The notes under the pieces: generated by a model | Database searches by the model: none | Seen by the model: the letters and a program-made list of their open reading frames with translations, nothing else | What the model was told of the DNA's origin: nothing | From: an uncultured Hyphomicrobium sp. | GTDB taxonomy: Bacteria > Pseudomonadota > Alphaproteobacteria > Rhizobiales > Hyphomicrobiaceae | Assembly (NCBI GenBank): GCA_934555825.1 | Contig: CAKTFJ010000004.1 | Span: 62,001-126,000 of the forward strand | Reading direction: 5' to 3' | Length of the DNA stretch: 64,000 bases | Part shown: one piece after another, positions 2,688-57,760 of the stretch | Layout of the letters: the number at the start of each line of letters is the position of its first letter | Position numbering within the stretch: position 1 is the first letter of the stretch | Position numbers and translations under genes: made by a program

Positions 2688-3230
2688 TCAGCTCCCGGAT
2701 CCGGTTGTGTCTGGCTGCGCTGCGGCGTCCGGATCGGGCTCGTCAGCAGAGCGCGGCGGAGCGGCGTAATATCCGGTCCGTCCGCCCGTCTTCTCTGCGA
2801 GGCGAATGGCGCCGATCTCCATGCCGCGGTCGGCTGCCTTCAGCATGTCGTAGAGCGTGAGCGCTGCTACGGACACGGCCGTGAGCGCTTCCATCTCCAC
2901 GCCGGTCTGGCCCGTCACGCCCACTTCGGCGCGGATATGAATGCCGGCCGGTTGATCCGACGGCGTGAAGTGGATGCCGGCGCGCGTGAGGCCGAGCGGA
3001 TGGCAGAGCGGAATGAGGTCGCTCGTTTTCTTCGCGGCCATGATGCCGGCGATGCGCGCAACGGCCAGCACGTCGCCTTTGGGCGCGGTGCCGGACAGGA
3101 TCAGTTCCAGCGTCTCCGCGTTCATGGTGACGAAGCCTTCGGCGACCGCCGTGCGGTGCGTCGCGTGCTTGGAGCCGACGTCCACCATGTGGGCGCGGCC
3201 CGATTCGTCGATATGGCTCAGCTTGGTCAT
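2688..3230 (-). CDS. moaC: Cyclic pyranopterin monophosphate synthase
   Basis: 180 residues. It converts the MoaA product into cyclic pyranopterin monophosphate. Family hallmarks are HMVDVGSK at the N-terminus, [11 protein letters not shown] near residue 75, [19 protein letters not shown] and the KTGG loop. The ATG at 3230 overlaps the trpC stop as ATGA, which fixes the start despite a long open frame upstream. The last ~20 residues are a Pro/Asp/Ala-rich tail not needed for the fold. It lies between trpC and moeA in the same direction, so tryptophan and molybdenum-cofactor genes share a transcript here, as in other alphaproteobacteria. Confidence 0.97.
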
Positions 3231-4030
3231 TGTGCGGCCTCCGGAGCGAGCAGGGCCTCTGTTGCAGCCTGGACGTCGGCCTGGCGCATCAGGCTTTCGC
3301 CGACGAGGAAGGTTTCGACGCCGACGCGCTTCAGACGCGTGATGTCGGCGGGCGTGAAGATGCCGCTCTCGCCGATGACGATCCGATCGTTCGGCACGCG
3401 CGGCGCCAGCTCTTCTGTGGTTGCGAGGGTGGTCTCGAAGGTTTTGAGGTTGCGATTGTTGATGCCGATGAGGCGGCAATCGAGCTTCAAGGCGCGGTCG
3501 AGCTCGGCGGCATCGTGCACCTCGACGATGGCGTCCATGCCCCAATCCTTCGCGGCGGCGGCAAGGTCGGCTGCGATCGCGTCGTCCACTTCCGCCATGA
3601 TGATCAGGATGCAGTCGGCGCCCCATGCGCGCGCTTCGACGACCTGATAGGTGTCGATCATGAAGTCCTTGCGCAGCACGGGAAGCGTGACTTCTGCTCG
3701 CGCGTTGGTGAGATATTCGGGCGCGCCCTGAAACGAGGGTCCGTCGGTCAGGATCGAAAGGCATGCGGCACCGCCAACTTCATAGGCGCGCGCGAGGGCC
3801 GGCGGATCGAAGTCGGCACGGATCAGGCCCTTCGAGGGCGAGGCCTTCTTGATCTCGGCGATCAGCGCTGTTTGCCCCGCTTTGTGCCTGGCTTCGAGCG
3901 CAGCTGCAAAGGGGCGCACGCGGGGCGCGCTGCGGGCGTACTCCGCCAACACCTGCAGAGGCAACTCTGCCTGCGCGGCTGCGACTTCCTCGCGCTTATA
4001 GCGGGTGATGGATTCGAGAATATCGGACAT
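3227..4030 (-). CDS. trpC: Indole-3-glycerol phosphate synthase
   Basis: 267 residues, a single TIM barrel without a fused TrpF. It closes the indole ring in tryptophan synthesis. Visible motifs are [11 protein letters not shown] (substrate lysine) near residue 60, LRKDFMID near 120, [20 protein letters not shown] and the phosphate-binding IGESGIF. Its TGA overlaps the moaC ATG. The 126-base space between it and trpD upstream is longer than other gaps in this run, so a separate promoter is possible, though none is obvious. Confidence 0.97.
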
Positions 4031-4156
4031 GACTCAGCTTATGTCAGGGAAGGGAAGGTAGCTACCGGCCCGGACGACGGGGGTCAAGCACGGGGGAGTG
4101 CGGGCGGCCGTCATGGTGAACGCCGACATCCGCAAAATTGCGCGAAATTCGCGGTC

Positions 4157-5179
4157 TCAACCCGCGTTATTGCTGATCGCGACCAAGCGTTCGAGCGCGT
4201 GGCCGGCGCGGCCGGACTGAATCGCGTCTGCCGCGAGGGATGCGCCTTCTTTGAGAGAAGCGGCGCGTCCGGCCACGACGAGGGCGGCTGCGGTGTTGAA
4301 CACGACGATATCGCGATAGGGCCCCGGATTGCCGGCCAGAAGGCCACGTAGCGCTTCCGCGTTGTGGGCGCCGTCGCCGCCTTTGAGATCCTGGAGCGTC
4401 ACACGCGGGAGGCCCGCATCTTCCGGCGTAATTTCGAACGTCGTGATGGTGCCGCCGTTCAACTCGGCAACCGTCGTCGGGCCCGTCGTCGAGAGTTCGT
4501 CGAGGCCGTCGTGGCCGTGCACGACCCAGGCACGCTCGGAGCCCAGCGCACGCAGCACTTCTGCGATCGGCTCAACCCATTCGGGGGCAAAGACGCCGAG
4601 CACGTGATGTTTTACGCCCGCAGGATTGCAGATCGGTCCGAGCAGGTTAAAGAGCGTGCGCACACCAAGATCCGCGCGTGCTGCGGCCCACGCCTTCATG
4701 GCGGGATGATGAGCCGGCGCCCAAAGGAAACCGACGCCCGCTTCGTCCACGGCGCGGACAATGGCATCCGGTCCGCAATCGAGCTTCACGCCAAGGGCGG
4801 AGAGCACGTCGGAGGCGCCGGAAAGCGACGACACCGAGCGATTGCCGTGCTTGGCGACCTTGAGGCCTGCACCCGCGGCAACGATGGCGGACCCGGTCGA
4901 AACGTTGAAAGTGCCGTGACCGTCACCGCCCGTGCCCACGATGTCTATGGCGCCGGACGCAACCGTGACCGGCATCATCTTGGCGCGCAGCGTGCGCGCC
5001 GCGCCCGTGATTTCGTCCACCGTCTCACCGCGCACGCGCAGGCCCATCAGGAACGCGCCCATCTGCACGGGCGTCGCTTCGTTGGTCAGAACGTCGACGG
5101 CGTGGGCCGCTTCGTCCGCGGTGAGGGGACGGCCACTCGCGATGGTCTGCAAAAGAGGCTTGATACCGGCTGTGGTCAT
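4157..5179 (-). CDS. trpD: Anthranilate phosphoribosyltransferase
   Basis: 340 residues from the ATG at 5179; open frame extends upstream but would run into trpG. It transfers the phosphoribosyl group of PRPP to anthranilate. The PRPP-binding loop GTGGDGHGTFNVST (near residue 77) and the KHGNRSVSS motif are intact. It lies 28 bases downstream of trpG and upstream of trpC. trpE is not next to trpG in this window. Confidence 0.97.
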   Translation of the reverse strand: MTTAGIKPLLQTIASGRPLTADEAAHAVDVLTNEATPVQMGAFLMGLRVRGETVDEITGAARTLRAKMMPVTVASGAIDIVGTGGDGHGTFNVSTGSAIVAAGAGLKVAKHGNRSVSSLSGASDVLSALGVKLDCGPDAIVRAVDEAGVGFLWAPAHHPAMKAWAAARADLGVRTLFNLLGPICNPAGVKHHVLGVFAPEWVEPIAEVLRALGSERAWVVHGHDGLDELSTTGPTTVAELNGGTITTFEITPEDAGLPRVTLQDLKGGDGAHNAEALRGLLAGNPGPYRDIVVFNTAAALVVAGRAASLKEGASLAADAIQSGRAGHALERLVAISNNAG

Positions 5180-8521: not shown

Positions 8522-10546
8522 ATGGGCGAGGTGCAAGACACGAAACCGGGGGCTTTGGCCGGTACGCGGGATATGGCGAACGCCATTCGCGCGCTCGCTA
8601 TGGACGCCGTGCAGAAGGCCAACTCCGGCCATCCGGGCATGCCGATGGGCATGGCGGACGTGGCGACCGTGCTCTTCACCGAAGCGCTCCGCTTCGATCC
8701 GGCCGATCCCGATTGGCCCGACCGCGACCGGTTCGTCCTCTCGGCCGGACATGGCTCGATGTTGCTCTATTCGCTGCTCTATCTCACCGGGTATCCGGGG
8801 ATGGACATCGGGCAACTCGAAAACTTCCGCCAACTCGGCTCGAAAACGGCTGGGCATCCCGAATTCGGTCATGCCGCCGGTATCGAAACCACGACCGGCC
8901 CGCTCGGACAGGGCATTGCCAACGCGGTCGGCATGGCGCTCGCGGAGCGGCTCCTCAACGCGCGTCTCGGCGACGACCTCGTCGATCACCGCATCTATTG
9001 CCTCGCGGGCGACGGCTGTCTGATGGAAGGCATCAGCCACGAGGCGATCTCGCTCGCGGGTCATCTCGGTCTCGGCCGGCTGATCGTGCTGTGGGACGAC
9101 AACTCGATCTCCATCGACGGCCCGACGGATCTCTCCGTTTCGGACGATCAGGTCGCGCGCTTCGCCGCATCGGGCTGGAACACGCTGCGCGTGGATGGCC
9201 ACGATCCGGCGGCGATCTCTGCCGCGCTCAAGACGGCGCGTGCCGATGCATCCAAGCCGTGGCTGATCGCGTGCAAGACGGTGATCGGCTACGGCGCGCC
9301 GACGAAGGCGGGCAAATCGTCCACGCACGGCGAGCCGCTCGGCGTGGACGAGATCGCGGGCACGCGCGAAAAGCTCGGCTGGAGCGCTGCGCCGTTCGAG
9401 GTGCCGGATGCAATCCTTGGCGCCTGGCGCGCGCTGGGTGCGCGCGGAGCGGACGAGAACGCGGCGTGGAAGGCGCGCTTCGCCAAGGCCTCGCCCGAAG
9501 CGAAGGCGCTGCTCGATACTCCGGCTGCCGCCTCGCGCAAAGGCGCGCTTGCGGACGCGATTGCCGCCGCCAAGGCGCAATTCGCGGCCGACGAAACAAA
9601 GCGCGCGACGCGTGTGTGGTCGCAGCTCACGCTCGAACACCTTGTGCCGGCGCTGCCGGAGCTGCTCGGTGGTTCGGCCGACCTCACGCCGTCGAACGGC
9701 ACGCGCACGAAGCATCATACGGCCGTCGCGCCGGGAAGCTTCGCGGGCAACTACATTCACTACGGCGTGCGTGAGCACGGCATGGCGGCTGCGATGAATG
9801 GCATCGCTCTGCACGGCGGCTTCATCCCGTACGGCGCGACGTTCCTTGTCTTCACCGACTACTGTCGCCCGTCGATCCGGCTTTCGGCGCTCATGGGCCA
9901 GCGCGTTGTGTATGTGATGACGCACGATTCCATCGGCCTCGGTGAAGATGGGCCGACGCATCAGCCCATCGAGCATTTGGCGGCGTTGCGCGCGATCCCG
10001 AATCTTCTCGTGCTGCGTCCCGCCGATGCGCTGGAAACGGCGGAAGCTTGGGAGATCGCGCTCGGCGAGGAGAAGAGGCCGTCGGTGCTGGCGCTGACGC
10101 GCCAGGCGGTGCCCAAGTTCGTGCGCGAGGGCGGCGAGGGGGCGAACCTCTCCGCGAAGGGCGCGTATGTGCTGAGCGGCGGCGCCAAGCGGGACGTGAC
10201 GCTGCTAGCTTCGGGATCCGAAGTCGGGCTTGCCGTCGAAGCTGCTGCAACTCTTGCGAAGGATGGGATCGCGGCGGCCGTCGTTTCGGTGCCGTCGTTC
10301 GAGCTGTTCCGCGCTCAGGACCAGGCTTATCGCGACGAGGTGCTCGGAGACGCACCGCGCATCGCAGTGGAAGCCGCCGTCGCACAGGGCTGGCACGAGT
10401 GGCTGCGTCCGGGCGACCGCTTCATCGGTCTTTCGGACTTCGGCGCCTCGGCGCCCGCGCCAAAGCTGTTCCAGCACTTCGGCATCACGAGCGAGCGGGT
10501 GGCGGAGGCTGCGCGCGAGGTCATTGCCGCCGCCAAGACGGCTTGA
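8522..10546 (+). CDS. tkt: Transketolase
   Basis: 674 residues from the ATG at 8522 ([10 protein letters not shown]); an earlier in-frame ATG adds 18 unlikely residues. The ThDP enzyme moves two-carbon units in the pentose phosphate and Calvin-type pathways. Motifs are [10 protein letters not shown] near residue 37, the [13 protein letters not shown]hDP motif ending in DDN, and GSADLTPSN and [10 protein letters not shown] in the second half. It is followed after only 9 bases by pgk; the gap gene that commonly sits between tkt and pgk in relatives is absent. Confidence 0.97.
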
Positions 10547-10555
10547 GGGAAACCG

Positions 10556-11755
10556 ATGAACCTCGACAAGCTGAAGACCACCGATGGCCTCGATGTTTCG
10601 GGCAAGCGCGTGCTCGTGCGCTGCGATCTCAACGTGCCGACCAAGGACGGCGCGGTGACGGACGCGACGCGTCTCGAACGCATCGTGCCGGGCCTCAAGG
10701 ATCTCTCTCAGCGCGGCGCGCGCGTGATCGTGCTCTCGCACTTCGGCCGTCCGAAAGGCGGGCCGGACAAGGAGAACTCGCTCGCGCCTGTCGCGGCTGC
10801 GCTTCAGAAGCTCGTCGGGCAGCCGGTGGCGTTTGCGGCCGACAGCATCGGGGAGGCTGCTCAATCGGCAGTGGCCGCGCTTCCGAATGGCGGCATTCTG
10901 GTGCTCGAAAATACGCGCTTCCATGCGGGCGAAACGAAGAACGATCCCGAGATCGCAAAAGCGTTTGCGGCGCTCGGCGATCTCTTCGTCAACGACGCGT
11001 TCTCGGCCGCGCATCGTGCGCACGCCTCGACCGAGGGCATCACGCATCTGCTGCCGTCCTACGCAGGCCCGCTGATGATGGAAGAGATCGGCGCGCTGCG
11101 TGCGGCGCTCGATCAGCCGAAGCGGCCCGTTGCCGCCATCGTCGGCGGCGCGAAGGTGTCCACCAAGATCCCCGTTCTCACCAATCTTTCGGCGAAGGTC
11201 GACAAGCTGATCATCGGCGGCGGCATGGCGAACACGTTCCTGCTCGCTGGCGGCGTCGAAATCGGGCGCTCGCTCGCGGAGCCGGACCTGATCGACACCG
11301 TGCACGAGATCATGCACGCTGCGAAATCCCGGAGCTGCGAGATCGTGCTGCCGCAGGATCTCGTCGTGGCCGATCGGTTCGAAGCCGGTGCGCCCCATCA
11401 AACGGTGGCCACCATTGACGTGCCGCCGGCGACCATGATCCTCGATGTCGGCCCCAAGACGGTCGATCACTATGTTGATGTGCTCTCGCGCTGCGAGACG
11501 CTGCTTTGGAACGGCCCGCTCGGCGCTTTCGAGATCGACCCCTTCGGAGATGGGACGTTCGCGCTCGCCAAAAAGGCTGCTGAGCGCACGCGGGCTGGCA
11601 CGCTCGTTTCCGTGGCCGGCGGCGGCGATACGGTTGCGGCATTGAACACCGCTGAAGTCACGGGCGATTTCACCTATGTTTCCAGTGCCGGTGGCGCGTT
11701 CCTCGAATGGCTCGAGGGGCGGGAGCTTCCAGGCGTGACCGCACTCGCGCGGTAA
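10556..11755 (+). CDS. pgk: Phosphoglycerate kinase
   Basis: 399 residues. Reversible phosphoryl transfer between 1,3-bisphosphoglycerate and ADP in glycolysis and gluconeogenesis. Visible are VLVRCDLNVP (substrate site), LSHFGRPKGG, ENTRFHAGE, the hinge around IVGGAKVSTKI, and the nucleotide-binding WNGPLGAFE and VAGGGDTVAAL. Length is normal. It is the second gene of a tkt-pgk-ccdA-thiD run. Confidence 0.98.
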   Translation: MNLDKLKTTDGLDVSGKRVLVRCDLNVPTKDGAVTDATRLERIVPGLKDLSQRGARVIVLSHFGRPKGGPDKENSLAPVAAALQKLVGQPVAFAADSIGEAAQSAVAALPNGGILVLENTRFHAGETKNDPEIAKAFAALGDLFVNDAFSAAHRAHASTEGITHLLPSYAGPLMMEEIGALRAALDQPKRPVAAIVGGAKVSTKIPVLTNLSAKVDKLIIGGGMANTFLLAGGVEIGRSLAEPDLIDTVHEIMHAAKSRSCEIVLPQDLVVADRFEAGAPHQTVATIDVPPATMILDVGPKTVDHYVDVLSRCETLLWNGPLGAFEIDPFGDGTFALAKKAAERTRAGTLVSVAGGGDTVAALNTAEVTGDFTYVSSAGGAFLEWLEGRELPGVTALAR

Positions 11756-49935: not shown

Positions 49936-50382
49936 CTAGACTGCATAAAGCGTTCGGGCGCGGGCCTCGAAGGCTTCCGTGTAACTCTTTACGGCCTTCT
50001 CGAATGCGGCACCGACAATCAGCGACAGCATGGTCGAGCTGAACGCATAGTCGATGGTGAAATGGACATCCGAGCCCCCGTTCGCGGCAACAAACCGCCA
50101 GTCGTTTTCGAGATGACTGAACGGGCCGTTGAGATGGCGCACGCGAACTTCGCCAATCTTCGGAAGAAGCTCGACGCGCGTCGTGAACCGCTCGGTAATG
50201 GCCTTATAGCCGACCGTCATGGTGGCAGTAAGCTCGCTTCCCTCCGGCGTCTCCTTGCGTTCGAGGACGGTGAGCCCTTCGACGAGCGGCAGGAATTCCG
50301 GATAGCGCTCGACGTCGGCGACGACAGCGAACATTTGCTCTGGCGTGAAGGCAACACGCCGGACGGTATTGAAGCGCGGCAC
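49936..50382 (-). CDS. Coq10/RatA-type START-domain protein
   Basis: 148 residues from the GTG at 50382, with AAGGA about ten bases upstream. The core FNTVRRVAFTPEQMFAVVADVE and RYPEFLPLVEGLTVLERKET is the polyketide-cyclase/dehydrase fold of the Coq10/RatA group, thought to carry or chaperone ubiquinone. The C-terminal AAFEKAVKSYTEAFEARA helix is typical. It follows lipA after 13 bases, its usual place. Confidence 0.92.
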   Translation of the reverse strand: MPRFNTVRRVAFTPEQMFAVVADVERYPEFLPLVEGLTVLERKETPEGSELTATMTVGYKAITERFTTRVELLPKIGEVRVRHLNGPFSHLENDWRFVAANGGSDVHFTIDYAFSSTMLSLIVGAAFEKAVKSYTEAFEARARTLYAV

Positions 50383-50395
50383 GTGGTGTGGGTCC

Positions 50396-51370
50396 TTATC
50401 GTGATGTGATCCCGGAGCCTGCGAGACGCGCGGCCTTGAGACGTTGGAAATCCTCGTCCGCATGATAGGACGAACGCGTGAGCGGGCTCGATGCGACCAC
50501 ATGGAAGCCTTTCGCGAGCGCGATGCGGCGCAGGTCGTCGAACTCGTCGGGCGGAACGTAGCGCTTGACCTCGGCATGCTTCGGCGACGGCGCGAGATAC
50601 TGGCCGATGGTCAGGAAGTCCACGTCCGCCGAGCGCAGATCGTCCATCACCTGCAGCACCTCGTCGCGCGTTTCGCCCAAGCCCACCATGAGGCCCGACT
50701 TGGTGAAGATTGCGGGATCCAATTCCTTTGCGTGCTGCAAGAGGCGGAGCGAGTGGAAGTATCGCGCGCCGGGGCGAATGCGAACGTAGAGGCCGGGGAC
50801 CGTTTCCAAATTGTGATTGAGCACGTCGGGACGGGCGGCGACGACTTTTTCGAGGGCGCGTTCCTTGCGCAGAAAATCCGGGATCAGCACCTCGATGCTG
50901 GTGGCCGGTGCACGCGCGCGAACCGTCTCGATGACATCTGCAAAGTGTGAGGCGCCTCCGTCTGCGAGGTCGTCGCGATCGACAGACGTAATGACGACGT
51001 GGCGAAGGCCAAGCGCTTCGACGGCATCTGCCACTTTCACCGGCTCGGCCGCGTTAAGCGGAAGTGGCACGCCGGTTGCCACGTTGCAGAACGCGCACGC
51101 GCGCGTGCAAATCTCGCCCATGATCATCATGGTGGCGTGACGCTGCTGCCAACATTCGCCGATGTTGGGACAGCCCGCCTCCTCGCACACGGTCGCGAGG
51201 CCGTGCTCGCGCACGATGGCACGCGTCGCAAGAAAGGCTTCGGAGCCGGGCGCGCGCACGCGAATCCATGCCGGCTTCGGCGGCATCGGATTGTCGGGGC
51301 GATGCGCTTTTTCGGGGTGACGCTGTGACGAGCGCGCGCGTCCGCCCCGCATGTCGATCAGTGTGACCAT
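50396..51370 (-). CDS. lipA: Lipoyl synthase
   Basis: 324 residues from the ATG at 51370, with GAGAGGA upstream. Radical SAM enzyme inserting two sulfurs into octanoyl groups on lipoyl domains. The auxiliary cluster motif is [12 protein letters not shown], and the SAM cluster motif is [10 protein letters not shown]. In relatives it follows pdhA-pdhB-pdhC-lpd; here it follows glsB and two lipoprotein genes. Being intact, it shows the cell still lipoylates proteins such as glycine-cleavage or 2-oxoacid complexes encoded elsewhere. Confidence 0.96.
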
Positions 51371-51480
51371 CAGCATCCTCTCGCTGGGCCTCGGCTCAAC
51401 TTAGGGGGCAAGAGGCCGCGATTAAAGCGGACAATGGTCGCGATTTGAGCGGTTCTGGTGGGTTTTTGCGGTCCGGCGCG

Positions 51481-51771
51481 TCAGCGTCCGCCCAGGAAGC
51501 GGGCGACGATCACGACAAGCATGGCGCCAATGGTCGAGATCGCAATCTGATTGCCGTACGGAATGACCGAATCGAAGTCGTACGGCAACGTCAGAAGCCC
51601 GGCATTGGCGAGGCTTCCGCCGACCACGGCGCCGATGAGGCCGACCAACAAGTTGCGTATCAGACCGCCGCCGCCGAGCAAGAGCCCTGCAAGCCAGCCG
51701 GCGACCAGTCCGTTGAGGACCATGACGACCCACTGCGGATTATCGGCCGCGAATTGTTGCAATTGCTCCAT
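51481..51771 (-). CDS. GlsB/YeaQ/YmgE family membrane protein
   Basis: 96 residues, three membrane helices with glycine-rich turns (GLVAGWLAGLLLGGGGLIRN, LLVGLIGAVVGGSLANAGLL) typical of the transglycosylase-associated PF04226 family, often induced by general stress. A 20-residue soluble N-terminus precedes helix one. It lies in the space where lpd/pdhC would be expected. A four-unit repeat array lies 117-174 bases upstream of its start. Confidence 0.88.
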   Translation of the reverse strand: MEQLQQFAADNPQWVVMVLNGLVAGWLAGLLLGGGGLIRNLLVGLIGAVVGGSLANAGLLTLPYDFDSVIPYGNQIAISTIGAMLVVIVARFLGGR

Positions 51772-51887
51772 GCATCTCCTGTTCGAGCGCGACCGCGTCC
51801 AATTGAATTGGGATCAGGCTCTATCTTTTACGGCCGACATACGTCGTCATATCGAAAGACAGCTCTCCCGGACCTGGGCGCTGTCTT

Positions 51888-51945
51888 ATGCGTGGCGGTG
51901 CTTCAAGCGTGCAACGCTACTAAGCGTGGCACACCATCAAGCGTG
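51888..51945. repeat. Four-unit direct repeat array, 17-bp period
   Basis: AAGCGTG occurs at 51905-51911, 51922-51928 and 51939-51945, exactly 17 bases apart, with a one-mismatch unit ATGCGTG at 51888-51894. The intervening ten bases are not conserved. The array is upstream of glsB and overlaps the end of the lipoprotein gene at 51937. Its constant period suggests a regulator-binding array. Confidence 0.55.
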
Positions 51946-52239
51946 ACATTGTGCGCCGAGATAATCGTTGAGAAGACGATTGTAGAGATCCGCATCGGCC
52001 TTTTGTGAGGCAGAGACTTTCCGGCCTGCCGCCTGCGACTGGATGACGGAGGGCACGCCCTTCGCGTCGAGCCGGTTGAGCTGCTGCTTGATGGAGCCGC
52101 AGGTTTCGCCAGCCGCAAGTGCCTTGCGCGCAGGGCCTTGCTGATTGCCGCCGGACGCGCAGCCCGCGGCTAGGACGGCCGTCGCAACGGCACCCAGCAG
52201 TGCCAACCGAAATGCGCCGCCACGCACCGTCGCTGTCAT
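51937..52239 (-). CDS. Small lipoprotein, unknown function (A)
   Basis: 100 residues. Signal peptide with lipobox LAAGC (Cys27), then a ~70-residue mature part with two Cys bracketing a helical segment: TCGSIKQQLNRLDAKG ... YLGAQC. The same Cys-bracketed pattern occurs in the next lipoprotein gene, suggesting paralogues. No domain recognised. It is in the pdhB-lipA interval on the same strand. Confidence 0.75.
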   Translation of the reverse strand: MTATVRGGAFRLALLGAVATAVLAAGCASGGNQQGPARKALAAGETCGSIKQQLNRLDAKGVPSVIQSQAAGRKVSASQKADADLYNRLLNDYLGAQCHA

Positions 52240-52433
52240 GGATCAGAAGCCCTCTAAAACAGTATTCGCCGGCAAATTATGATTTTCAGCAGAAGTGTAG
52301 AAGCCCTCTGCGCTTCTCTCAAGGCATTCGCGCGAAAGTGTGGCCAGAGAGCAGCACTTTCCACCAACAGCCATACACGCGCGCCGTCCCGTCCGGGCGA
52401 TCCGGTCGGGACACCAGCCTGTTCAGGCGCGTG

Positions 52434-52937
52434 TTACGGGCGCGACTGCGGAATGACCGGCGGTGCGATGTGGCGCTGGGCCGGGGGTGTCGGAGTTGCC
52501 ACGGGCGAGGGTGTCGCAGCGGACACAACCTGCGCCGCGTTCGCTGTCGGCGGCGCTACGGGTGCGGCAGGCGCGGCCTGTTGCGCGGCGAGCTGCGGCA
52601 CGCGAACGCCGGGTGCTGCGCACTTGGCCTGGAACTCGGCGTTGGCCTTGTCCAGTTCCGCCGCCTGTCCGAGCGAGGTGCGCTTGACGGACACCGTCGA
52701 AGACTTTCCGACGGACGCTTTCTCCAGCCGCTCCGTGAGGCCGTCCTGGCGCAGAGCCTGGATGCGCTGGGCGAGCGCATGGCACGACGGATCGACCGCG
52801 TTTGCAGCGGGAACCGCCTGAGCGGTGTTGATCGACTGCGTGGTGAGCGGGTTCGAAAGGATTCCGCTGTCCGAGCAGCCCGCGAGGCCGAGCCCGACGA
52901 CTGCGGCTGTAATCAATGTCGCTCCGGATTTCCGCAT
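52434..52937 (-). CDS. Small lipoprotein, unknown function (B)
   Basis: 167 residues from the ATG at 52937. Lipobox LAGC (Cys22). A Cys-bracketed helical segment, SCHALAQRIQALRQDG ... FQAKC, parallels that of lipoprotein A. A ~70-residue tail rich in Ala, Pro and Thr follows and ends PPVIPQSRP, probably a disordered wall- or envelope-spanning linker. It lies between pdhB and lipoprotein A. Function unknown. Confidence 0.75.
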   Translation of the reverse strand: MRKSGATLITAAVVGLGLAGCSDSGILSNPLTTQSINTAQAVPAANAVDPSCHALAQRIQALRQDGLTERLEKASVGKSSTVSVKRTSLGQAAELDKANAEFQAKCAAPGVRVPQLAAQQAAPAAPVAPPTANAAQVVSAATPSPVATPTPPAQRHIAPPVIPQSRP

Positions 52938-53175
52938 GGTGTCCCCCCATGATCGACGGCCTAAACGTTGCCGCTCCATCGCTCTGGTCTACGGTCTTGT
53001 TCGCGTACGTCACAAGAAGGCGGGGCCAATTTGTCGGTGTATGGACGAAATTGACAGAGGCGAATCTGTGGAAATAGCGCTGCCGTGGCGTGGCAGCCAC
53101 AACGGGGTCCTCACGGGATCCAGAACCGCGGGCGAATTGAACGACCAAAAGTAAGACGCGCGCCGATTCCCGGGC

Positions 53176-54516
53176 TCAACCCTGATGAACCAGGCCCTTC
53201 ACGGCGTGCGCAACATCCTGAGCACGCGGCACGGCAACGGCCTGAAGCTCGGCGGCGTAGGGCATCGGAACGGATGCGCCCGCGATCCGACGCGGCGGGC
53301 TTCGCAAGGCGCGGAACTGGTTCGCTGCGACGTGAGCGATCAGTTCGGCACCGATGCCACCCTCTCCCGCGCCGTCTTCGACCGTCACCAATCGGCCCGT
53401 GCGTGAAACGGATGCCGATACAGTCTCACGGTCGAGGGGGCGCACCCACATCAGATCGACGATCTCTGCCTCGATCCCATCGAGGCTCAATTCGTTCGCG
53501 GCTTCGAGCGCCGTCAGCACCGCGCGGCCAGCGGCGGCAATCGTCACGTCGGTTCCGCTCCGTACAATGCGCGCCTTGCCGGGTGCCGGATCGAACGGAT
53601 CATCGACCGTGGCATCCGGGATGGCATAGAGCAACTCATGCTCCAGCACGGCCACGGGGCCGGGATGCTGGATCGCGGCGCGGAGGAGCGCCTTGGCGGA
53701 CGCCGCGGTTGCCGGGTGTGCAACCTTGAGGCCGGGGATGCGTGCAAGATCGGCCGCGACGCAGCGCGCGTCCTGTCCGGCCATTCCCGGCACGTAGCCG
53801 TTCGGGCCGCGGATCACGAGAGGAACGGCTTGTGCGCCACCCGAGAGATAGAACGCTTCAGCCGCCGTCGCGAGATACGGCGTCAGGACTTCGAGTGCGC
53901 GACCCCAATGAGCGATCTCGACGACGGGCTTCAAACCTGCCATCGCTGCGCCGAGCGCCACGCCGAACAGCGCATCTTCGAGGGCGGCAACCTTCACCAC
54001 GCGCTTTTCGCCAAACGTGTCGAGAAGCCCTTGCGCGACCTTGGGCGCACCACGGTTCTGCGCAACGTCGGTGCCGATCAGAAAGACGCTGTCGTCGGCG
54101 TGCATCTCCTCGGCGAGCGCATCTCTCAGCGCCTCGCGATATGTGGTCCCGCGTGCAGGAGCGAGCCCATGATCACGTCCTTGCGCGGGAGATCGCCCGG
54201 ATTCGTCAGGGGGCAAAGCTCCCAAGCTGGCGAAACCGAGCGCTGCGGACGGAGCGTCTTCTAACGGGCGCGACACCCCGGCAAAAACGATGGCGATCGG
54301 CGTATTGACCTTCACGCCTTCCGTTCCTGCGGGCACGAGGATGCGCTCGACGCGGCCCTCGCTCGACGCTTCGAGCTCGAGTGTCGCTGTCGAAGTCGCG
54401 ATCTCGACGAGCACATCGCCTGCCGCGACGTGCTGGCCTTCGGAGACGTGCCAGCGCGCAATTCTGCCGTCCGTCATGGTCGGTGTCATGGGCGGCATGA
54501 GGATCTGCTGGCGCAT
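53176..54516 (-). CDS. pdhB: Divergent pyruvate dehydrogenase E1-beta with degenerate lipoyl domain
   Basis: 446 residues from the ATG at 54516 (GAGG upstream); a GTG at 54528 overlapping the pdhA stop is possible. Residues 1-78 are a lipoyl domain fused to E1-beta, the usual alphaproteobacterial layout. At the hairpin where ETDKAT is expected it reads ATSTAT, so the lipoyl lysine is Thr43. The E1-beta domain (about 123-446) keeps RGPNG, the LGAAMAGLKPVVE segment and the probable catalytic Glu180, but the His usual in AAQHSQ is Asp249 (AGQDAR). The ThDP-site segment equivalent to MTFNFAMQ is AHWGRALE. No pdhC or lpd follows. It may be a repurposed ThDP decarboxylase or a decaying enzyme; expression is unknown. 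Confidence 0.85.
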   Translation of the reverse strand: MRQQILMPPMTPTMTDGRIARWHVSEGQHVAAGDVLVEIATSTATLELEASSEGRVERILVPAGTEGVKVNTPIAIVFAGVSRPLEDAPSAALGFASLGALPPDESGRSPAQGRDHGLAPARGTTYREALRDALAEEMHADDSVFLIGTDVAQNRGAPKVAQGLLDTFGEKRVVKVAALEDALFGVALGAAMAGLKPVVEIAHWGRALEVLTPYLATAAEAFYLSGGAQAVPLVIRGPNGYVPGMAGQDARCVAADLARIPGLKVAHPATAASAKALLRAAIQHPGPVAVLEHELLYAIPDATVDDPFDPAPGKARIVRSGTDVTIAAAGRAVLTALEAANELSLDGIEAEIVDLMWVRPLDRETVSASVSRTGRLVTVEDGAGEGGIGAELIAHVAANQFRALRSPPRRIAGASVPMPYAAELQAVAVPRAQDVAHAVKGLVHQG

Positions 54517-54524
54517 GGGATGCC

Positions 54525-55553
54525 TCACGCCTCGACCGATGAAAGAAGCTCGCCAGGCGACGGCGCGGGCTCGGCCTGCGCTGTCATCTTCGCGGCCGTG
54601 ACCTCGTCCCTCACCTCTTTTTCGAGCGCTTTGATGTCTCTTTCTGCGAGGACGCCCGAGGCGAGAATGCGCGCGCGCGCCTTGCTGACGGGATCTGCAT
54701 CCTCAATGCGGGCTTCCGCACCGCCACGCCGCGCCGGCATCCCGCCATGGCCGCGGTAGCGATACGTGAGCATTTCGAGAAGCGTTGGGCCCTCGCCGCT
54801 ACGGGCACGCGCGATGGCACGGCGGGCGGCCGCTCGCGCACGACGAACGTCGATGCCGTCGACCTGCTCGCCGGGAAGCGCGAAGGGCGTGCCGCTCTCG
54901 GCAATCGCGGACGGCACGGGACCGAGCACGATGCCGGCACCTGGGTTGGCGGTGTTGTTGTCGACGACGAAGACGATCGGGAGCTTCCGGTCGGCGGCGA
55001 ACCGGTAGGCTTCGAACACACGTCCGCGGGCTGCCGCGCCATCGCCGTAGAAGCATAGCGTCACGGCGTCGTCGCCTCGATACCGGGAGGCGAACGCAAG
55101 GCCGGCCCCCACGGGGACGTTGAGGCCGGCAAAGCCGTGACCGCCATAGAAGCGGTGTTCGGGGTCGAACATGCGAACGGAGCCGCCTTTGCCCCGTGAC
55201 ACGCCCGCTTCCCGCCCGAGAAGCTCCGCCATGACGCGGCGGGGCTCGACGCCGCGGGCCAAGAGAACGCCGTGGGTGCGATAGCTCGTGATGACAGGAT
55301 CGGTATCGCGCGCGGCCATCATGAGGCCGACGATGGCGCCTTCCTGCCCGATGGAAAGAGGGCAGAGCCCATGGATCGCTTCGAGAGCGTAGAGCTGTCC
55401 GGCTTTTTCTTCGAAACGGCGGATGAGCAGCATCGTCCGGTAGGCCTGGATTTCCTCCTCCGGCGTAAAGGCGATGCTATCTATGCTCGCCGAACCAGGG
55501 GGCACCCCCGCCATCTTGGTGTCTCGCTCCGTTCTGGAATGGGCTTTGGACAT
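54525..55553 (-). CDS. pdhA: Divergent pyruvate dehydrogenase E1-alpha
   Basis: 342 residues from the ATG at 55553; an ATG at 55514 is an alternative. The ThDP motif is present as GDG (170-172) to Asn200 (FYGDGAAARGRVF ... VVDNN), and SRGKGGSVRMF and GGHG loops are clear. Differences from ordinary PdhA: GFCHLYIGQ reads GLCPLSIGQ (His to Pro65, Tyr to Ser67), the NNRYxMGT segment reads NNTANPG, and YRGHS reads YRGHG. Following ftsB and preceding pdhB it is in the normal position, but the operon lacks E2 and E3 genes. Homology is sure; activity as pyruvate dehydrogenase is doubtful. Confidence 0.87.
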   Translation of the reverse strand: MSKAHSRTERDTKMAGVPPGSASIDSIAFTPEEEIQAYRTMLLIRRFEEKAGQLYALEAIHGLCPLSIGQEGAIVGLMMAARDTDPVITSYRTHGVLLARGVEPRRVMAELLGREAGVSRGKGGSVRMFDPEHRFYGGHGFAGLNVPVGAGLAFASRYRGDDAVTLCFYGDGAAARGRVFEAYRFAADRKLPIVFVVDNNTANPGAGIVLGPVPSAIAESGTPFALPGEQVDGIDVRRARAAARRAIARARSGEGPTLLEMLTYRYRGHGGMPARRGGAEARIEDADPVSKARARILASGVLAERDIKALEKEVRDEVTAAKMTAQAEPAPSPGELLSSVEA

Positions 55554-55769: not shown

Positions 55770-56102
55770 CTACCTCACGTCGTGCGGCTTTTCCGCGACA
55801 ATGCTGTCCCTGGGGTGGGCAAAGCCCAGAACCTCGCGGGCGATCTCTTCGACGAAATCGGGGTCGGGAAGGTCGGGGCGCAGAAGCGCGACATCGCGCT
55901 CCAGTTTGGAGCGCACGGTCTCGAGGCTCTCAAGCTGGAACTGAAGAGCGCTTTCGCGCTCGAGCAGTCGTTCTCGAGCCTCGAGACCGTGGCGGCCTTT
56001 CAAGGTGTGATGGGCGAAGTACGCCGTTAAGCCGAGGCAGAGAAGCAAAACCAATGCCTGCCGAAGCTTGGATCGCCGATCGTATGAAGGCTGACGCAGC
56101 AC
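55770..56102 (-). CDS. ftsB: Cell division protein FtsB (DivIC-type septum initiator)
   Basis: 110 residues: short cytoplasmic basic tail, one membrane helix (ALVLLLCLGLTAYFAHHTLKG), then a periplasmic coiled coil (LEARERLLERESALQFQLES) and a PDFVEEIAREVLGFAHP end typical of FtsB/DivIC. It joins FtsL and FtsQ at the divisome. It sits between eno and pdhA, the conserved order. 216 bases without a gene separate it from pdhA. Confidence 0.92.
   Translation of the reverse strand: MLRQPSYDRRSKLRQALVLLLCLGLTAYFAHHTLKGRHGLEARERLLERESALQFQLESLETVRSKLERDVALLRPDLPDPDFVEEIAREVLGFAHPRDSIVAEKPHDVR

Positions 56103-56284: not shown

Positions 56285-57760
<1,476 letters not shown>

Follow-up and report, generated by a model that had tools for sequence, protein, structure and literature searches.

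A pyruvate dehydrogenase E1 pair of Hyphomicrobium, probably outside any lipoyl-dependent complex and possibly kept as a binding pseudoenzyme

In Alphaproteobacteria, the E1 component of the pyruvate dehydrogenase (PDH) complex consists of PdhA (E1-alpha) and PdhB (E1-beta), and it is the latter that carries a lipoyl domain. The stretch of DNA analysed here (the window, 64 kb long) comes from a Hyphomicrobium strain and encodes a pair, pdhA* and pdhB*, that is orthologous by synteny to these two subunits and resembles them in genomic site, domain order, predicted fold and the thiamine diphosphate (ThDP) diphosphate/Mg motif. Unlike the described enzymes, however, the pair has lost the lipoyl lysine, His63-alpha, His128-beta and Phe85-beta, is accompanied by neither pdhC (E2) nor lpd (E3) at its site, and scores under the NCBIfam cut-offs. 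Other known systems are more distant. The homodimeric AceE (TIGR00759) which, together with AceF, is the probable present PDH of the congeners differs in architecture and lies at another genomic location, while an acetoin-dehydrogenase-like cluster in the congener G004 (stretch L126) shares the E1 alpha/beta domains but has an E1-beta without lipoyl domain, its own E2 and a separate locus. The E3-binding protein of eukaryotic PDH (PDHX) is a pseudo-E2 that lost catalysis and was kept for binding; it is an E2 relative within a working complex, whereas here an E1 pair apparently stands outside any complex. We found no paper on such a retained Hyphomicrobium E1 pair in a literature search of open-licence PubMed Central (PMC) texts. 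Our preferred reading, held with moderate confidence, is that an E1 heterotetramer was retired from PDH and has been kept as a diphosphate- and protein-binding pseudoenzyme.

Except for one residue, the window PdhB is identical to P0001, a protein of 446 aa under the label Hyphomicrobium sp. that was used in its place in the alignments, residue tables and structure model; its identity to the homologue of H. nitrativorans NL23 is 89%. All Pfam domains of the PDH E1 alpha2beta2 enzyme (E1_dh, Transket_pyr and Transketolase_C) are present in the window pair, and the curated cut-offs for PDH E1 are nonetheless missed with NF008854 (421.9 against 454), NF006667 (309.5 against 321) and TIGR03182 (Table 1). 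With human residue numbers transferred by alignment, the window PdhB has Thr for the lipoyl lysine, Asp for His128, Arg for Phe85, Asn for Tyr33 and Arg at residue 34. The window PdhA keeps the GDG...NN motif and the equivalents of Arg90 and His263, has Pro at the His63 equivalent and reads GHGGMPA in the GHSMSDP loop.

These changes are shared by a larger clade. Residue tables were made from the top 120 of the 7824 and 7822 hits to the two proteins and divided into clade and canonical sequences by the motifs TDKATMEVEA for PdhB (with P0092 added to the canonical set) and GHSMSDPA for PdhA, which gave 108 clade and 12 canonical PdhB and, with the window included, 82 clade and 39 canonical PdhA. 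For PdhB the division coincides with identity to the window protein, at least 53% in the clade against at most 49% in the canonical set. The lipoyl lysine of the DKA motif occurs in 0/106 clade PdhB (two gaps aside) and in 11/11 canonical ones (one gap aside), a count that is partly built in by the motif split. His128-beta, His63-alpha and the other positions played no part in that split: His128 is found in 0/108 clade against 12/12 canonical PdhB, with Asp (63), Glu (22), Gly (9), Gln (8) and others (6) in its stead, and Phe85-beta is Arg in 76 of the 108. Among the 82 clade PdhA, the His63 position carries Pro in 77 sequences and is still His in 2 (gone in 80) and the Met200 position is Pro in 74; Arg90 and His263 are retained in all 82, Asn196 in 79 and Asp167 in 75, the Mg aspartate being replaced in 7. 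The roles of the tabulated residues are those that we presume, except for His128-beta and its pocket, His271-alpha, Tyr102-alpha and Ile206-alpha. The lack of lipoyl lysine and His128 throughout the clade, together with the sub-threshold family scores, bears out the proposal of a first-pass annotation of this DNA that the pair probably no longer belongs to a lipoyl-dependent complex.

The surroundings of the pair agree with the same annotation in two further respects, the ancestral position of the genes and the disappearance of pdhC and lpd. Read along the minus strand, the genes are eno - ftsB - pdhA - pdhB - lipo1 - lipo2 - GlsB-like - lipA - coq10, with 1.8 kb between lipA and pdhB, and the intact pair stands in the same order in the congeners; tblastn searches, made with a single query each for E2 and E3, returned no match in the window or in the eight congener stretches. 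Since the arrangement is common to 8/8 genus-level genomes, all with intact pdhA and pdhB reading frames (PdhB 57 to 89% and PdhA 70 to 93% identical to the window proteins), an assembly or annotation artefact was rejected. Two of these genomes deviate in detail: G002 has no lipA at the conserved site (stretch L121) and carries a 73%-identical lipA on another contig (C24), and the contig of G005 begins after eno and stops inside lipA.

Two small lipoproteins and a GlsB-type membrane protein had been taken to stand in place of E2 and E3, which the relatives do not bear out. E2 and E3 lie together with the two lipoproteins on the stretches of 11 relatives (L197, L198, L199, L201, L202, L205-L208, L240, L243), and all 11 have the order pdhB-pdhC-lipo1-lipo2-lpd, followed by the GlsB-like gene and then lipA in the eight whose stretch shows them. 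Because the lipoprotein genes lie between pdhC and lpd in these relatives, pdhC and lpd were lost from around them rather than swapped for them. Moreover, the site yielded no pdh gene in nine genomes of the family (L244, L250, L270-L276), while ftsB, lipo1, lipo2 and the GlsB-like gene are still there (ftsB-lipo1 distance about 1 kb in the six sites measured). Lipoproteins that are ancestral and persist where no pdh gene was found were rejected as functional replacements of E2/E3. The two are related to each other (hhalign probability 96.8%, E 2e-10, the signal region contributing in part), and lipo2 is present in 23/397 genomes sampled from the order. That linkage to ftsB, lipo1, lipo2 and the GlsB-like gene survives gene losses could also mean that the pair is a purely structural, ligand-free partner of its neighbours, for instance in envelope growth or budding, and the ThDP motif itself is broken in three other genomes of the family (G078, G095 and G096). 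We regard this as improbable, as the linkage is older than the retirement and hence carries little weight, and the diphosphate half-site is strongly conserved in the Hyphomicrobium clade.

Homodimeric AceE is encoded by 8/8 congeners in one to three copies each, and every one of them has an E2 match within 1 kb of an AceE; the frames read in G002 encode AceF and, after it, an Lpd-like protein. A search for pyruvate:ferredoxin oxidoreductase (POR, PF01558) was negative in 8/8 congeners, pyruvate formate-lyase lying outside that search. With the congeners as proxy, the genome search that the first-pass annotation had suggested gave a PDH of another type, AceE, and no POR. Given AceE in all eight, the PDH function has probably been taken over by AceE(F), which for the window strain we infer from its relatives. 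The eight congeners also have two to four E2 genes each elsewhere in the genome, and mixing of E1 and E2 parts is possible in principle, so that the pair might be a working PDH E1 which borrows E2/E3 from AceF or the acetoin cluster. This appears quite improbable: His63, His128 and mostly Phe85 are gone, the three extra E2 genes inspected in context each have their own E1, and AceE is present in the congeners. The cluster in G004 (L126 1231-9224), whose acetoin-dehydrogenase-like character is a tentative naming of our own, comprises a second lipA near an E1-alpha, the E1-beta, a catalytic-only E2, an LplA-like protein and a sigma-54 activator with a GAF domain. Hyphomicrobium X is said to lack PDH and to have been given E. 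coli pdh genes; we could not find this account and do not use it as evidence, and AceE in 8/8 congeners is no obvious fit to it.

Both genes are under purifying selection. Between the window and G004, which we took to be H. nitrativorans NL23, the ratio of nonsynonymous to synonymous substitution rates (dN/dS) is 0.073 for pdhA and 0.123 for pdhB, and 12 neighbouring genes range from 0 to 0.153 in the same comparison; against G009 and G008 the values are 0.18-0.23, with dS above 1. Three canonical pairs gave 0.03-0.15. The constraint on the Hyphomicrobium genes is strong, perhaps somewhat relaxed, so that the comparison among relatives which the first-pass annotation had proposed points to purifying selection (0.07-0.23 against three congeners). 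Its suggestion of decay was not borne out, as the low dN/dS and the intact reading frames in 8/8 congeners favour repurposing instead. A decaying remnant heading for loss could account for the nine family genomes in which ftsB and the lipoproteins stay without any pdh gene found, and for single remnants, E2-like in G024 and E1-alpha-like in G080. We consider it highly improbable here, with dS exceeding 1 in two of the three congener comparisons, more than 100 clade sequences in the protein database and ratios of 0.17-0.20 in a second lineage; decay was rejected on the low dN/dS in Hyphomicrobium and in G095/G096.

What has been conserved differs between the two halves of the active site. In an entropy test with position lists of our own choice and permutation P values, the diphosphate/Mg positions of clade PdhA have a mean of 0.275 against 1.002 bits overall (P 0.0002), whereas the substrate-side positions, at 1.441, are above the average. 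Both groups are nearly invariant in canonical PdhA (0.022 and 0.000, respectively, against 0.669 overall). Within PdhB the lipoyl-type domain is the most conserved region, with a mean entropy of 0.69 against 0.96-2.75 elsewhere. An AlphaFold2 (AF2) model of P0001, the beta subunit, matches 1ni4_B in Foldseek (TMt 0.89) and shows, at moderate to good confidence (68-87 over blocks), an E1-beta fold plus a lipoyl-type domain. Confidence falls below 50 in the linker 81-121 and in the loop 151-159, where Asn33 and Arg34 lie, and is 56 in the block 241-250, which holds the His128 position.

We therefore envisage, from these sequence patterns, the following course, each step of which is conditional. 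The ancestral PDH E1 alpha/beta pair of Hyphomicrobiaceae would have been retired from the PDH complex, with AceEF taking over acetyl-CoA formation. The pair may still assemble into an E1-like heterotetramer in which the conserved alpha half-site would bind ThDP-Mg or another diphosphate, and the lipoyl-type domain, which could no longer be lipoylated, may serve as a protein-binding arm. Such a pair would act as a regulatory or structural pseudoenzyme and not as a catalyst.

Several points in the beta pocket weigh against this. The beta pocket list is not more conserved in the clade than the average (1.067 against 1.23 overall, P 0.28). At Glu59-beta, which we take to be the cofactor activation residue, the window has Glu and the clade Asp in 70, Glu in 34 and another residue in 4 of 108. 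The clade has a near-invariant Trp at beta 83, and new residues have been fixed in beta, namely Asn33, Arg34 and Gly126 in 108/108 and Arg130 in 107/108. The kept Glu59 equivalent, the Trp and the newly fixed residues could together form a new active site. Nor does the loss of His128 settle the matter: in a study of Geobacillus stearothermophilus E1p (PMC2663715), N and Q mutants of His128-beta have less than 5% of PDH-complex activity, and mutant crystals grown with a ThDP analogue did not have it bound, but the H128Q-beta enzyme has near wild-type activity with 2,6-dichlorophenolindophenol (DCPIP). Loss of His128 alone is therefore no proof of lost decarboxylation.

A credible if unlikely alternative is a stand-alone ThDP enzyme whose pocket was rebuilt by two newly fixed Arg and an Asn in beta and by Pro in alpha; with an anionic compound as substrate, it would carry out decarboxylation or ligation in which no lipoyl transfer takes part. 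The fixed beta residues, the retained GDG...NN motif, Arg90 and His263, and an Asp or Glu at position 59 in 104/108 would suit such an enzyme. It fits poorly with the variable His128 and Phe85 positions, the predominance of Pro at His63 and Met200, the more than average variability on the substrate side of alpha, the mostly Asp replacement of Glu59 and the occasional replacement of the Mg aspartate. The suggestion of a "ThDP decarboxylase or sensor" in the first-pass annotation may go either way, the diphosphate half-site being kept and much of the catalytic half not.

The pseudoenzyme reading can be compared with other lineages of the family. A PdhB of the lipoyl-domain type was readable in 47/103 family genomes, the ancestral site not being shown for every one. 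The lipoyl lysine is gone in 15 of these 47, namely the eight congeners plus G078, G094, G095, G096, G023, G003 and G093 (Arg in the last), and the remaining 32 keep His128 and Glu59 throughout. AceE is encoded in 12/15 lysine-less against 5/32 lysine-bearing genomes (Fisher test, 3.5e-5, in which shared ancestry is ignored). The three lysine-less genomes without AceE (G003, G023 and G093) have POR-family matches. No such PdhB was obtained from the other 56 genomes; AceE is present in 36 of them, and POR was found in 1 of 13 tested from the other 20. The G095/G096 pair gave dN/dS of 0.17 and 0.195, so a second lineage is also constrained, and the loss of the Mg aspartate as well in G078, G095 and G096 would suit a non-catalytic role there. 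We tentatively propose, as possible rather than probable, that Hyphomicrobiaceae repeatedly turned a displaced PDH into a non-catalytic "pseudo-PDH" after takeover by AceEF or POR. In this scenario, E3, E2 and some parts of E1 would have been lost in varying orders and the intact E1 (or E1-E2) left over kept as a ligand-binding regulator. Its lipoyl-type domain, no longer open to lipoylation, would dock onto a partner, which may be the replacement PDH or a component of the lipoylation machinery.

Other family data leave gaps in a replacement rule of this kind. A different 2-oxoacid type could also account for the POR matches in G003, G023 and G093, the last of them a partial match. In 12 of the 13 tested genomes with neither such a PdhB nor AceE, no POR and no acetyl-CoA route was found. 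G056, from which pdhAB has been lost, shows no AceE (at E 1e-60) and no POR. Such gaps may, among other causes, reflect incomplete assemblies. The seven lysine-less lineages outside the genus also differ from Hyphomicrobium in their residues, with His128 kept in 6/7, Glu59 lost in 6/7, His63 kept in 5/7 and Phe85 kept in 3/7. As these lineages lost different residues, a common function is not implied.

Whether the lysine was lost once or several times was approached with two trees. A species tree from nine neighbouring genes (2254 columns, 24 of 38 taxa having at least 5 of the 9 markers; the lysine-less G005, G095, G023 and G093 fall outside it) pairs the lysine-less G094 with the canonical G092 and the lysine-less G003 and G078 with the canonical G077, both at 100%. 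The lysine-less label changes four times on this tree, and well supported branches require at least three of these changes. The approximately unbiased (AU) test rejects a single lysine-less clade (p 3e-63). The reservations are that the groups in this test were named after sight of a first tree, and that a PdhA+PdhB gene tree, made without five loci having partial or missing pieces and without loci lacking PdhA, separates the 16 rows without the lysine, all of them together, from the rest by a branch with 99% support. These rows include very long branches (G023 and G078 are flagged), and the pattern would fit long-branch attraction or a single origin. Placed singly or in small sets against 26 canonical rows, G094, G003, G093, G078 and G095/G096 adjoin G077/G079, as does the five-row Hyphomicrobium set at a support of only 20, with G023 left unplaced. 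The PdhAB data reject neither G094+G092 (AU p 0.17) nor G003+G077+G079 (p 0.44) and therefore neither demonstrate nor exclude recurrence, so the tree of PdhA and PdhB that had been proposed as a check gave an equivocal answer. Taken with the species tree, recurrent loss of the lysine in the family appears likely.

If the proposed retirement is correct, the family would offer a natural series for the origin of pseudoenzymes, in which a central metabolic enzyme lost part of its key chemistry while strong selection on it persisted, apparently more than once and alongside a replacement enzyme. Metabolic models may then be misled by the name "pyruvate dehydrogenase E1" that these Hyphomicrobium proteins carry. 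Hyphomicrobium grows on few multicarbon substrates, and the history of the pair may bear on why.

The features of the locus are collected in Table 1. The start of pdhA is best set at 55514, as the resulting 329 aa match the usual length of homologues; the alternative starts at 55553 and 55664 were rejected on the same grounds.

Table 1. Features at the E1 locus of the window (positions within the 64-kb stretch)
Feature	Position	Strand	Basis and remarks
eno, enolase	56285..57574	-	name from first-pass annotation; upstream flank, order conserved in relatives
ftsB/divIC-like	55770..56102	-	PF04977; upstream flank, order conserved
pdhA*, E1-alpha homologue, 329 aa	54525..55514	-	Pfam E1_dh 8.9e-64; TIGR03182 330.4 bits, under cut-off 393.85
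pdhB*, 446-aa E1-beta homologue, lipoyl-type domain at the N-terminus	53176..54516	-	Pfam Biotin_lipoyl, Transket_pyr, Transketolase_C
pdhB* lipoyl-type domain (roughly residues 1-80), attachment lysine absent	54277..54516	-	Pfam; lowest mean entropy of four PdhB regions
lipo1, small lipoprotein	about 52434..52937	-	conserved in 8/8 congeners; between pdhC and lpd in relatives
lipo2, small lipoprotein, lipo1 paralogue	51937..52239	-	gene order in relatives, profile likeness
GlsB-like small membrane protein	51481..51771	-	name from first-pass annotation; no Pfam match
lipA, lipoyl synthase, ordinary	50396..51376	-	TIGR00510 377.7 bits, above cut-off 310.25
coq10-like gene	49936..50397	-	name from first-pass annotation; downstream flank, order conserved

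Several sites elsewhere in the family hold partial sets of the genes. An E2 without lipoyl lysine is present in G003, G094, G093 (cut by the contig end) and G077, the E1 of the last being canonical. In G077 (L196, E2 reading frame 9440-10996, minus strand) the E2 sequence EVETATATMEVEA stands beside a canonical E1 with its lysine, and no lpd match was obtained at this site; G077 may represent an early stage, with lipoylation possible on the lipoyl domain of E1-beta alone. G024 has an intact lone E2-like reading frame between ftsB and lipo1 (L245, about 3070-4480) in which neither the lipoyl lysine nor the HxxxDG motif is present. G080 has an E1-alpha-like remnant of 284 aa (L278 5203-6054), its reading frame intact and its GDG motif missing, and no pdhB match; neither AceE at E 1e-60 nor POR was found in this genome as a route to acetyl-CoA.

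Finally, small conserved reading frames occur between pdhB and pdhC in L191, L196, L197, L200 and L203, and none matching them was noticed in the window. One encodes about 140-190 aa with several hydrophobic stretches, and the other about 105-115 aa with a motif like ELELPDGVHDA...IFNPETF..DVSEWGRLL.

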